35,864 nt of DNA from Spirochaetota bacterium (GTDB lineage: Bacteria > Spirochaetota > UBA4802 > UBA5550), in the NCBI GenBank assembly GCA_017999915.1, contig JAGNKX010000015.1:110376-146239 (forward strand), read 5' to 3'. The notes beneath the pieces are model-generated. The model saw nothing but the letters and a program-made list of their open reading frames with translations. It was not told where the DNA came from and searched no databases. Below are positions 3 to 5,732 of this stretch, one piece after another; the stretch's first letter is position 1, and the number at the start of each line of letters is the position of its first letter. A program made the translations under genes and the position numbers.

Positions 3-3000
3 GTCGCGCCCCATGCGGGCGCGTGGATTGAAACTCGAGCCATTGCCAGACGTTCCCGGTCATATCATAGTCGCGCCCCATGCGGGCGCGTGGATTGAAA
101 CATCGAGATAACCAAGCTTGCCCAGGAGCGCCTCAGTCGCGCCCCATGCGGGCGCGTGGATTGAAACCTGAGAAACCTGTCACCAAAGTGAAGGTAGAGA
201 CGTCGCGCCCCATGCGGGCGCGTGGATTGAAACCAAGCGGGTTCCTATGTCACAATAGCAATTAAATTGTCGCGCCCCATGCGGGCGCGTGGATTGAAAC
301 AAGAAAACCTTGATATTACTGTTGGATTTGGAAAGTCGCGCCCCATGCGGGCGCGTGGATTGAAACCACGTCGGGGAGGTAGTCTTCGCCGTATAACTTA
401 CGTCGCGCCCCATGCGGGCGCGTGGATTGAAACTTTTCGCGGGCATTATAAAAGTATTGCCACAGCTGTCGCGCCCCATGCGGGCGCGTGGATTGAAACG
501 CTATAAATCGCCGCAAGCCAATTCATGACATCCTGTCGCGCCCCATGCGGGCGCGTGGATTGAAACGAGTCAGGAACAGCGGGAACAATTAAAACCAAAG
601 TCGCGCCCCATGCGGGCGCGTGGATTGAAACAGGGATATTGGAGATACTAAAAACCGCATTGTGATGGTCGCGCCCCATGCGGGCGCGTGGATTGAAACA
701 TGGTGCCTTTCGCCTGAATCTCCATTTCGCGAAGTCGCGCCCCATGCGGGCGCGTGGATTGAAACATATAATAATGCACTATACCACCACTATAATAATG
801 TCGCGCCCCATGCGGGCGCGTGGATTGAAACAAAACTACTTAAACCGAAAAAGATAATCGCTAAGTCGCGCCCCATGCGGGCGCGTGGATTGAAACTTCG
901 TAAAGGTATCGGGAGTAAAGATAGGAGAGAGTCGCGCCCCATGCGGGCGCGTGGATTGAAACAATATTTAAATTATTAGAGCAAATAACATTTATAGTCG
1001 CGCCCCATGCGGGCGCGTGGATTGAAACTTTTTCTTGACTTTCTTAAGATATAAAGATATATTGTCGCGCCCCATGCGGGCGCGTGGATTGAAACAAATG
1101 GTAAAATGGTATATATGTATGGTTGGACAGTCGCGCCCCATGCGGGCGCGTGGATTGAAACACTCGTGTAAAGTATCACTCTACCGATGTTATAAAAGTC
1201 GCGCCCCATGCGGGCGCGTGGATTGAAACCCGGAGTATAATATCCGCTCGTCGAGGTCCTTGTGTCGCGCCCCATGCGGGCGCGTGGATTGAAACTATAA
1301 TCCTTGTATACTGACCCACCCGGATCAAGTCGCGCCCCATGCGGGCGCGTGGATTGAAACAATGATATCATTGACCCCTTTGTCACCATACCCGGTCGCG
1401 CCCCATGCGGGCGCGTGGATTGAAACAAAAACTCCCCGGTAAAGCTGATCTTGTTCGCCGTCGCGCCCCATGCGGGCGCGTGGATTGAAACACTATTAGG
1501 TGTGATTGCGAGACTCCTACCGAGAGTCGCGCCCCATGCGGGCGCGTGGATTGAAACCTTCAATGGTCGCACACTTAACCGTGCCTGGGGCCGCGTCGCG
1601 CCCCATGCGGGCGCGTGGATTGAAACACCCGTTACGCTGACCTTGTGGCGATATTCCAGGAGTCGCGCCCCATGCGGGCGCGTGGATTGAAACTCAGCCC
1701 GGACTGTGAAGAACCGTCCCTGGGACAGTCGCGCCCCATGCGGGCGCGTGGATTGAAACGACGATGAACGGGAAACCGTGAAGACTATTCAGTGTCGCGC
1801 CCCATGCGGGCGCGTGGATTGAAACGCGGGTCTTAAAGTCCGTGTCATCGGTAAGCGGAAGTCGCGCCCCATGCGGGCGCGTGGATTGAAACTACGTCAG
1901 GGTCACCAATCTGACAATCGACGCATGTCGCGCCCCATGCGGGCGCGTGGATTGAAACAAGCAGCGCGACAACGATGTTTTTACGCGCCTGGTCGCGCCC
2001 CATGCGGGCGCGTGGATTGAAACTACTTGTGTGAAATATCACTCTACCGATGTTATAGTCGCGCCCCATGCGGGCGCGTGGATTGAAACTTTGTTATCCC
2101 TTGCAATGTAAAAAACAATTCAGATGTCGCGCCCCATGCGGGCGCGTGGATTGAAACCTGATAAATCCCGGCGCTGCTCGATGATCACCGGGAGTCGCGC
2201 CCCATGCGGGCGCGTGGATTGAAACTCAATAGTTCAACGGCTACCGCGGAGGCCCGGCAGTCGCGCCCCATGCGGGCGCGTGGATTGAAACTATACCCGT
2301 CCACTTGTTCAGTTACTACTGTTTGTCGCGCCCCATGCGGGCGCGTGGATTGAAACGCGGATAAGTGCGGAGATTCACAATTCGTCTGAGTCGCGCCCCA
2401 TGCGGGCGCGTGGATTGAAACATGATGGGCGGTATGCAGATCGCGCTCGGCACCTGTCGCGCCCCATGCGGGCGCGTGGATTGAAACAAGGAGATTATGG
2501 AGGGGGCCCGGGAAGTGCATCGTGTCGCGCCCCATGCGGGCGCGTGGATTGAAACAAATCTCGCCCCACCACCTGGATTATCTCCGGCGGTCGCGCCCCA
2601 TGCGGGCGCGTGGATTGAAACACGGCGGGTATCGGCGTCCAGGTGCAATTCGCGGTCGCGCCCCATGCGGGCGCGTGGATTGAAACCAGTACATAACACC
2701 AATTCCCGGACCGACCCCGGTCGCGCCCCATGCGGGCGCGTGGATTGAAACCCGGTATACAATGACGGTATATTTCCACGGCGATGGTCGCGCCCCATGC
2801 GGGCGCGTGGATTGAAACCCTAATATACTTAATTATTATTGTATTAAAGATAGTCGCGCCCCATGCGGGCGCGTGGATTGAAACGCCTCCCGCAGTTGCG
2901 CTTGCATGGCGTTTACTAGTCGCGCCCCATGCGGGCGCGTGGATTGAAACAAAATTGACCTGTGATACTGTCAGACCTAAATTGTCGCGCCCCATGCGGG

Positions 3001-4537
3001 CGCGTGGATTGAAACCGATAATATCCTATTATGTCACATACTGCATGGGATGTCGCGCCCCATGCGGGCGCGTGGATTGAAACTTTTGATTGTGCCGACA
3101 ATAAAGAGCGTATACAATGTCGCGCCCCATGCGGGCGCGTGGATTGAAACATCGCAGGTATAACTTGGGCGATAAGCACGATATGGTCGCGCCCCATGCG
3201 GGCGCGTGGATTGAAACGAAGATTTGGGCTTGCACAGGTGGTTGGGTGAAGTCGCGCCCCATGCGGGCGCGTGGATTGAAACATGGATGTCGCCGCCTAT
3301 CCGGTGCGGCTTGACCCGTCGCGCCCCATGCGGGCGCGTGGATTGAAACTGCAAAACAGATGCTTTAAAATCAGTAAGGTCGGGTCGCGCCCCATGCGGG
3401 CGCGTGGATTGAAACTGCCAGAGATGGCAAAGCACATTCCCGAGTAAAGGTCGCGCCCCATGCGGGCGCGTGGATTGAAACAATCATAGAAAAGGGTGAC
3501 CTGGTTATAATGACGTCGCGCCCCATGCGGGCGCGTGGATTGAAACAACACCCGGGGTTTGACTTGGAAACGCTACTGCTGTCGCGCCCCATGCGGGCGC
3601 GTGGATTGAAACAACACCCGGGGTTTGACTTGGAAACGCTACTGCTGTCGCGCCCCATGCGGGCGCGTGGATTGAAACATCGAAAATGGGATCATTAAAA
3701 CCGGACGTCAAGTCGCGCCCCATGCGGGCGCGTGGATTGAAACAAACCTGTTATTTGTAATAGGTTTTAAATTAAATGTCGCGCCCCATGCGGGCGCGTG
3801 GATTGAAACTCCGGTTATCATGGGTAGACGATTGCACAGCGCATGTCGCGCCCCATGCGGGCGCGTGGATTGAAACCTTCCTGATACGCTCCTGGTCTTT
3901 CTTGATGGTTGTCGCGCCCCATGCGGGCGCGTGGATTGAAACCAGTACTGATTGACGAACTGTTTCTCGCTGATCCCGTCGCGCCCCATGCGGGCGCGTG
4001 GATTGAAACCCTCGTCTTACGGTCGTAGTCTACAAGTAGAATGTCGCGCCCCATGCGGGCGCGTGGATTGAAACGCAAATCGATTGATTTGATATACCAC
4101 CGCCGCTTGTCGCGCCCCATGCGGGCGCGTGGATTGAAACTAAAAAACCTCGAATGCCATGGATGCGGGGTAATGTCGCGCCCCATGCGGGCGCGTGGAT
4201 TGAAACAGATGAGCAGAAGGCCCAGGTCCTACGCCTGCGGTCGGTCGCGCCCCATGCGGGCGCGTGGATTGAAACCTCAAACGTCTTGCGCGGCTGGTCC
4301 GGGTCGGGCGTCGCGCCCCATGCGGGCGCGTGGATTGAAACAAGTGCTTGTTCCTGAACCGTCCGCACCAGATGGTTGTCGCGCCCCATGCGGGCGCGTG
4401 GATTGAAACAGTGCCGCTATGCTCGCCGCCGTAGCTAATGCCGTCGCGCCCCATGCGGGCGCGTGGATTGAAACAAGGAACTTGTCGTCATCACCCGCGA
4501 CCTGCGGCGGTCGCGCCCCATGCGGGCGCGTGGATTG
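3..4537 (+). CRISPR. Large type I-C-like CRISPR array, distal part
   Basis: I count 69 copies of a 32-bp repeat that begins GTCGCGCCCC and ends TGGATTGAAAC, starting at 3, 70, 136 and so on to 4510, with a period of 65-69 bp. They enclose 68 complete spacers of 33-37 bp. The copies look identical except the last. Each repeat folds into a 7-bp stem (CGCGCCC/GGGCGCG) with a 5-nt loop (CATGC). The 11 nt after the stem (TGGATTGAAAC) match the 5' handle left by Cas5d processing in type I-C systems. The ATTGAAAC end marks the transcript's 3' side, so transcription runs left to right and the leader lies left of base 1. Bases 1-2 are the tail of another spacer, so the array continues outside. No cas gene is in the window; the type call rests on the repeat alone. 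Confidence 0.97.
4510..4537 (+). repeat. Terminal CRISPR repeat, 3' end lost
   Basis: The first 28 bases match the consensus repeat exactly. The last four (AAAC) are replaced by GACT, and the sequence then runs into unrelated DNA starting CTTCGACAAGCTCAGG. A decayed last repeat is typical of the leader-distal end, which agrees with the polarity from the repeat sequence. The break falls exactly after GGATTG, which matters for the short repeat-like copy at 4944. Confidence 0.9.
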
Positions 4538-4943
4538 GACTTCGACAAGCTCAGGCGCCGTAGTAGCAGTGTGCTGGTCGTGTCTTGTTGTGTGGCTTAT
4601 CTGTAGTCGCCGTGCACGACGCACGGCGTCGCGAGGATGGCCCAGGATGGGCCTTCCGGAGCGAAAGGAAGAAGACACTTAAGTCCATCGCCTTAAAACA
4701 AACAAAAAACACAAGCTTTCAAAAGCATATAAACCTGAAAAACGTAAAGGGCATTAGAAGTCAGCCTCCGCCGGCGATTGAGGCGGCGGGGAAAAGAGGA
4801 GCGCGAGGGGAAAGGGGCGCGGAGCCCCTGTCCCCTCGCAAAAATGCCGACCGTCTCACGGTCAAGCCCCTGCCCCTGGATAGGGGTGTCTCGATTTTGC
4901 CGAACTTCCGGCAAAACATAGAAAACCATGACCATAAGGGGGG
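4538..4943. other. Hairpin-rich non-coding region after the array
   Basis: I see no convincing gene here. Open frames exist but their translations are low-complexity and lack a ribosome site. The stretch holds at least five hairpins. Stems at 4617-4622/4626-4631 and 4639-4644/4648-4653 have 6 bp each. A 16-bp stem with one mismatch sits at 4803-4818/4824-4839. A 6-bp stem is at 4849-4854/4858-4863, and TTTTGCCG/CGGCAAAA pairs 4895-4902 with 4909-4916. Between them (about 4675-4765) is an A-rich tract. It could be an inserted repetitive element or a structured RNA. Confidence 0.6.
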
Positions 4944-5043: not shown

Positions 5044-5292
5044 ATGAATACAAAATTAACCCTTAATATTGATAAAAATATCATTAATAAAGCTAAAACC
5101 TATGCCTCAAACCAGCGCATCAGCCTATCCAAACTTGTCGAGGAGTATTTAAAGTCACTTTCCAGTGGTTCCAAAGAGGAATTCGTTGTTGCTCCTATTA
5201 CAAAAGAATTGAGCGGGATTATTAAGAAAAAAACCAAAATTGACTATAAAAGTACCGTTGAAGATTATTTAATTACTAAGCATATTAAATGA
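5044..5292 (+). CDS. VapB-type antitoxin (DUF6364-like)
   Basis: This 82-residue protein begins with a strand-forming segment (MNTKLTLNIDKNIINKAK) followed by two helices (ISLSKLVEEYLKSL). That is the ribbon-helix-helix pattern of antitoxins such as DUF6364. The RHH part should bind the promoter just upstream, and the charged C-terminal half (KKKTKIDYKSTVEDYLITKHIK) should wrap the toxin. A GAGG site lies 9 nt before the ATG. The stop overlaps the next start (ATGA), which implies coupled translation with the PIN toxin. The coding sequence is AT-rich compared with the rest of the window, which fits recent transfer. The family name comes from pattern recognition, without a database search. Confidence 0.8.
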   Translation: MNTKLTLNIDKNIINKAKTYASNQRISLSKLVEEYLKSLSSGSKEEFVVAPITKELSGIIKKKTKIDYKSTVEDYLITKHIK

Positions 5293-5732
5293 AAGATAAG
5301 CTATTCATTGACTCTGATATAATTCTTGATATTGCACTATCCCGCGATCCACATTTCCTTTCTTCTTCAATAATTTTCAGTCTTAGTGAGACAAAAGCGC
5401 TGGAAGGCTTTACTTCGTCGGTTGTTGTTTCTAATCTTTATTATATATTGAGAAAATTAGAATCGCATAAAGCGGCTATTGATTTTATATCAAAATTACG
5501 ATTAATTATAAAAATACTACCCGTAACTGATGAAATAATTAAATTGGCTCTTGAATCTAAATTTAAAGATTTTGAAGATTCATTACAATACTATGCAGCG
5601 TTAATAAATAATATTGAGTATTTAATTACTAGAAATGTAAAAGATTATTCACGTACAGAGATTAAAGTCCATACTCCTGACGAATTTATAAAAATAAAAA
5701 AAATAAAAAAGCATGTGGGCACCGGCGGCTAA
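5289..5732 (+). CDS. PIN-domain toxin (VapC-like ribonuclease)
   Basis: The 147-residue protein has the PIN-fold signature: an N-terminal LFIDSDIILD with the first metal-binding Asp (D8, D10), the central DFEDSLQYYAA motif with further acidic residues, and the late strand YLITRNVKDY. PIN toxins cut RNA, often tRNA or rRNA, using Mg2+ held by these acids. The start overlaps the antitoxin stop by four bases. Like its partner it is AT-rich. The last residues (HVGTGG) and the stop codon lie at the edge of a GC-rich palindrome whose composition differs sharply, so the C-terminus may have been altered when that sequence arrived. PF13470-like (PIN_3) is my best family guess. Confidence 0.82.
   Translation: MKDKLFIDSDIILDIALSRDPHFLSSSIIFSLSETKALEGFTSSVVVSNLYYILRKLESHKAAIDFISKLRLIIKILPVTDEIIKLALESKFKDFEDSLQYYAALINNIEYLITRNVKDYSRTEIKVHTPDEFIKIKKIKKHVGTGG

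Follow-up and report, generated by a model that had tools for sequence, protein, structure and literature searches.

Two sister spacers in a Spirochaetota type I-C CRISPR array, most likely derived from a single PF23790-type gene site of two related phages

Near the start of the window (the whole 35,864-nt stretch of Spirochaetota DNA analysed here), a CRISPR array carries two near-twin spacers, A and B (Table 1), that are genuine sister spacers and whose most likely source is the same PF23790-type gene site, sampled from two related phages. We infer phage sources and independent acquisitions: the type I-C system would twice have taken a spacer at a single site, for which we propose the conserved V[RK]YHxTDV[VI] motif in a gene of the PF23790/phrog_554 type, and its source phages would have been related, not identical. 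The three differences between the spacers would then be ordinary divergence between these source phages—two of them silent and the third in the variable residue before the motif.

Table 1. Coordinates of the CRISPR features, in window positions
Feature	Position	Strand	Description
CRISPR array (part within the window), type I-C	3..4541	+	32-nt repeats GTCGCGCCCCATGCGGGCGCGTGGATTGAAAC; spacers 33-37 nt
Spacer A, newer sister	1162..1197	+	36 nt, ACTCGTGTAAAGTATCACTCTACCGATGTTATAAAA; plus frame TRVKYHSTDVIK
Spacer B, older sister	2024..2057	+	34 nt, TACTTGTGTGAAATATCACTCTACCGATGTTATA; plus frame from second base, TCVKYHSTDVI
Degenerate terminal repeat, distal (oldest) array end	4510..4541	+	three mismatches, GTCGCGCCCCATGCGGGCGCGTGGATTGGACT

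Results

The Array Belongs to a Type I-C System

From left to right on the contig (G000:C15), cas genes are followed by a leader and then by 70 exact copies of the 32-nt repeat; the window starts inside this array, so that the leader end lies to its left. The upstream genes run cas3-cas5c-cas8c-cas7c-cas4-cas1c-cas2 (L003), with NCBIfam matches above cut-off for cas5c, cas8c, cas7c, cas1c, cas4 and the Cas3 domains, and with cas2 assigned by size and position, as a Cas2-sized ORF directly 3' of cas1. This gene set and an array of ~32-nt repeats of the form GTCGC...GGATTGAAAC place the system in type I-C, and it is apparently intact. With the repeat ending in ATTGAAAC and the 5' side of each spacer towards the PAM, the orientation is the usual one for type I-C; the initial annotation had supposed a type I system in this orientation, rightly, and the subtype can now be added. 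For the PAM itself we adopted 5'-TTC-3', the type I-C PAM in the system studied in PMC7913775. The degenerate last repeat (Table 1) indicates that the right end of the array is old and the left end new.

Several further features accompany the locus. A run of ~100 N interrupts the array left of the window (G000:C15:110183-110409), and the spacers to its left repeat those to its right (window 35 and 102); the gap is therefore probably a junction of overlapping contig ends, which leaves the spacer count at the leader end uncertain. Between cas7c and cas4, also left of the window, a toxin-antitoxin pair (PF09720 antitoxin and PF05016 ParE-like toxin; L003:16454-17034) separates the effector genes from the adaptation genes inside the type I-C operon. 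Just past the old end of the array, genes for a DUF6364 protein and then a PIN_3-domain protein overlap by 4 bases (window 5044-5732) and look like a second toxin-antitoxin pair. Two genomes of family f24 (L125 and L152) have a repeat identical to that of a Treponema saccharophilum plasmid (L161), which suggests Spirochaetota as the host phylum.

Spacers A and B Are Sisters

Spacers A and B align without gaps over 33 bases, as first annotated; they differ by transitions at positions 4, 9, and 12, and the 21 bases from 13 to 33 are identical. Their ends had been described as offset by one base, which is true of the 5' end, where B is one base longer, and fails at the 3' end, where A is three bases longer. 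When the window's 67 spacers were compared all against all on both strands, this pair scored 24, far above the best score among 40 shuffled arrays (14), which supports the original reading of sister spacers from variants of one site. The next-best pair scored 10, and the only one to score higher than A/B was an exact tandem duplicate (3547-3580 and 3613-3646), which leaves A/B as the sole variant pair in the array and the duplicate as its only other related pair. The duplicate consists of adjacent, identical 34-nt spacers (AACACCCGGGGTTTGACTTGGAAACGCTACTGCT; window 3547-3646). Spacers A and B thus share strand and register and resemble each other beyond chance, while differing in length and standing among unrelated neighbours. 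That B is the older of the two, as had been proposed, is borne out by the leader and cas genes to the left and the degenerate terminal repeat to the right; twelve other retained acquisitions separate them in the array.

All three differences fall within the first 12 of the 33 bases, for which the chance probability is P = 0.04 at that end (one-tailed) and 0.08 at either end, so that the clustering is by itself weak. The usual type I seed comprises the first eight bases. The differences had been said to lie exactly in the seed; numbered on A they are at 4, 9, and 12 and numbered on B at 5, 10, and 13, which puts one of the three within the first eight bases.

The Plus Strand Matches a Phage Family Motif

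On the plus strand both spacers read T(R/C)VKYHSTDVI(K), which matches V[RK]YHxTDV[VI], the signature of a family of unknown function that is widespread in phages and is listed as PF23790 (Kyano_Gp96) in Pfam and as phrog_554 in PHROGs. The resemblance was recognised after the peptide had been seen and was then tested. It lends indirect support to the earlier proposal that the target is a coding gene, though probably on the other strand from the one proposed. The minus-strand peptide of the initial annotation, YNIGRVI(L/F)(Y/H)TS, is a correct translation but is unsupported as the target frame, where the plus frame fits a phage family; in IMG/VR, the one contig found to contain the minus-strand motif has it antisense to an ORF of no relation. 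The minus frame is open in both spacers and makes one of the three differences silent, versus two of three in the plus frame, where the third swaps R and C in the variable column before the motif. As judged from these translations, the minus-strand peptide probably represents the wrong strand.

A scan of IMG/VR with the pattern V-x-Y-H-x-T-D-V-V returned 20 contigs, 16 of which carry one family and four a different, unrelated protein; the 16 continue after the motif with GGW.T.TTK.RMNQ or close variants, and a single family member used as a tblastn query matched 183 phage records. Across 28 distinct members the motif residues V, Y, H, T, D, and V are invariant (the search required them), and the spacers match every one of these, with K at the R/K column. 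The neighbouring columns agree as well: directly before the invariant V the family has C in five members and R in two, the same two residues as the spacers; two columns before it T is commonest (10/28); and K follows the motif in 5/28. The phage contig L057 encodes DMTCVKYHWTDVV and shares the codons ACT TGT with spacer B, and another family member (L072) has I at the VV/VI position, as do the spacers. The invariant V-x-Y-H-x-T-D-V motif is present in the plus frame, in a comparison limited to the 11–12 residues that the spacers cover.

Against a profile of the family, the plus-frame peptides score 16.9 and 15.7 bits, values that are inflated because the profile members were collected by the motif; every other spacer of the array scores ≤1.4 bits, and the highest score among 19,800 shuffled spacers is 7.4. 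A profile built from cyanophage members only recognised neither A nor B, the cyanophage motif being different (e.g., VYLHGNKIA). X-padded 12-mers gave 0 matches against PHROGs, in a search in which HMMER filters drop most such short matches. The arrays of three relatives held no further spacer with the motif, and a scan of the genome contigs yielded two chance ORFs only.

Protospacer Searches

Searches of IMG/VR with the core 21-mer, an 18-mer, and degenerate patterns in the plus and minus frames recovered no protospacer of A or B, the pattern matches being chance hits or distant family members only. Nothing convincing emerged when the array spacers, N-joined and with a few AT-rich low-complexity ones left out, were compared by BLAST with 50,697 phage records, when spacer A alone was compared with the phage records at E up to 10, or when spacer B was compared with plasmids. 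A search for the 33-mer with ≤3 mismatches, run over 98 relatives and over 393 genomes from the phylum, found only the array itself. With no protospacer found, we infer the target gene from the 11–12 residues described above.

Sister Spacers Are Common in Type I-C Arrays

A discovery set of type I-C arrays located beside cas1c genes in the same phylum (33 arrays and 1,434 spacers) contained 13 same-register variant pairs, A/B included, in six arrays. With A/B left out, the differences in this set lean to the PAM-proximal half (+9/-2; sign-flip p = 0.009). The test of PAM-proximal bias was written down before further arrays were gathered, and the replication set consisted of 31 such arrays with 819 spacers, partly from other phyla and including plasmid-borne systems of Nitratidesulfovibrio, Thermus, Zymomonas, Deinococcus, and others. 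Its nine pairs did not reproduce the PAM-proximal excess (+3/-4, p = 0.43), and a general seed bias is accordingly not established. Two arrays were re-oriented by cas gene strand and the GGATTGAAAC end of the repeat, a change made before the replication test and after the first pair listing had been seen; one replication pair (L135 #37/#45) probably has an indel, so that the ungapped rule over-counts it, in the hypothesis's direction. Both sets combined, again leaving A/B aside, give p = 0.044 by sum and 0.12 by sign.

A same-register variant pair is present in 12 of the 64 type I-C arrays, and any related pair in 21, which makes sister spacers common. The offset within variant pairs is 0 in 17/22 and one base, as in A/B, in three. 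Among the individual pairs, L087 #7/#32, from a family relative (G008), has an offset of one base and six differences in 33, and codes on the minus strand for KIYPTGE(E/A)(S/N)VF with several silent changes. In two other arrays (L117 and L104), blocks of several spacers are repeated in the same order, which is evidence of segmental duplication.

Discussion

How A and B Arose

Duplication within the array followed by mutation of one copy would also yield near-twin spacers, and exact spacer duplicates do exist in this array (the tandem pair above) and in others. We rejected this origin, and consider it very improbable, because B extends farther at the 5' end and A at the 3' end, and mutating a copied spacer does not produce such differences in length; moreover, no neighbouring spacers were duplicated alongside them, and one spacer would have had to gather three changes while 70 repeats stayed identical. 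It is also unlikely, to our judgement, that the target was another, unsampled gene, possibly on the minus strand, and that the plus-strand resemblance to PF23790 is coincidental. Such a reading draws on the shortness of the match, on the absence of a protospacer from the phage, plasmid, IMG/VR, and phylum searches, and on the minus frame being open in both spacers. It would, however, leave to coincidence the agreement at all six invariant residues and the R/K column, the common family residues in the neighbouring columns, and the larger share of silent differences in the plus frame, and the pattern in question leads to the PF23790/phrog_554 family in 16 of 20 contigs and to an unrelated protein in the other four.

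Escape from the older spacer B possibly lies behind the second acquisition. The full account has a phage evading B by means of PAM-proximal changes and the host next acquiring A from that escape lineage, perhaps with priming by B; it fits the array order and the confinement of the differences to the first 12 bases. It gains as well from B's first base, a T (if TTC was strict in both acquisitions, the A-type phage lacked B's PAM), from the 5'-half excess in the first 33 arrays surveyed, with this array left out, and from a precedent in Legionella, where the same scenario was proposed for a type I-C array with two overlapping spacer pairs (PMC5071653). We nevertheless regard it as rather unlikely: a single difference lies in the eight-base seed, three changes in 33 bases exceed what a one-step escape needs, and the pre-specified replication in 31 other arrays gave no 5' excess. 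That two of the three changes are silent further suggests that strains of phage had diverged in the ordinary way, and not that a mutant had escaped in a single step. The reading that we prefer, two acquisitions at the same position in a PF23790-type gene, from two related phages, has its own difficulty in that 21 identical bases, silent positions among them, adjoin a 12-base stretch with three changes.

What Sister Spacers May Record

Near-twin spacers show repeated encounters between a host and related phages at a single site, and by comparing the two copies one can ask whether escape by phages can be read back from CRISPR arrays. The 12 of 64 arrays with variant pairs provide a first base rate for sister spacers in type I-C systems. 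If such spacers were a fossil record of escape, with the second copy tending to be kept when the variant differs PAM-proximally, both the seed and the succession of escapes could be read from arrays by themselves; we find this general claim doubtful, and the PAM-proximal excess that appeared in one array set and failed in the next cautions against reading single pairs as escape events.

Comparison With Known Systems

The A/B pair is a new example of a known phenomenon and ordinary in kind. The idea of a pair formed by escape and re-acquisition is already known from the 2016 study of Legionella pneumophila Toronto-2005 (PMC5071653), in whose type I-C array two overlapping spacer pairs target the element LME-1; in these pairs the element is matched by the newer spacer, while changes in PAM or seed defeat the older one, and the study proposes that primed acquisition followed upon escape. 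Like A/B, the Legionella pairs combine newer and older spacers over overlapping target sequence in a type I-C system, but there the element is known and the PAM or seed mismatch of the older spacer can be read from it, whereas A and B are known from the spacers alone. In Pseudomonas aeruginosa PaLML1, likewise type I-C with the PAM 5'-TTC-3', escapers carry PAM-proximal point mutations at +2 and +3 (PMC7913775), while the A/B differences lie farther in, at 4, 9, and 12 (or 5, 10, and 13), and two are silent.

With the PF23790/phrog_554 family the translated spacers share the motif V[RK]YHxTDV[VI] and the flanking T, C, R, and K, the likeness extending over 11–12 residues, with the GGW.T.TTK.RMNQ part outside the spacers. 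Further parallels are pairs in other surveyed type I-C arrays (among them L087 #7/#32, L111 #19/#24, and those of L097, L107, L117, and L135), which resemble A/B in having the same strand, a site within 0–2 bases and few substitutions, although the positions of their differences vary and most have an offset of 0, where A/B has an offset of 1.
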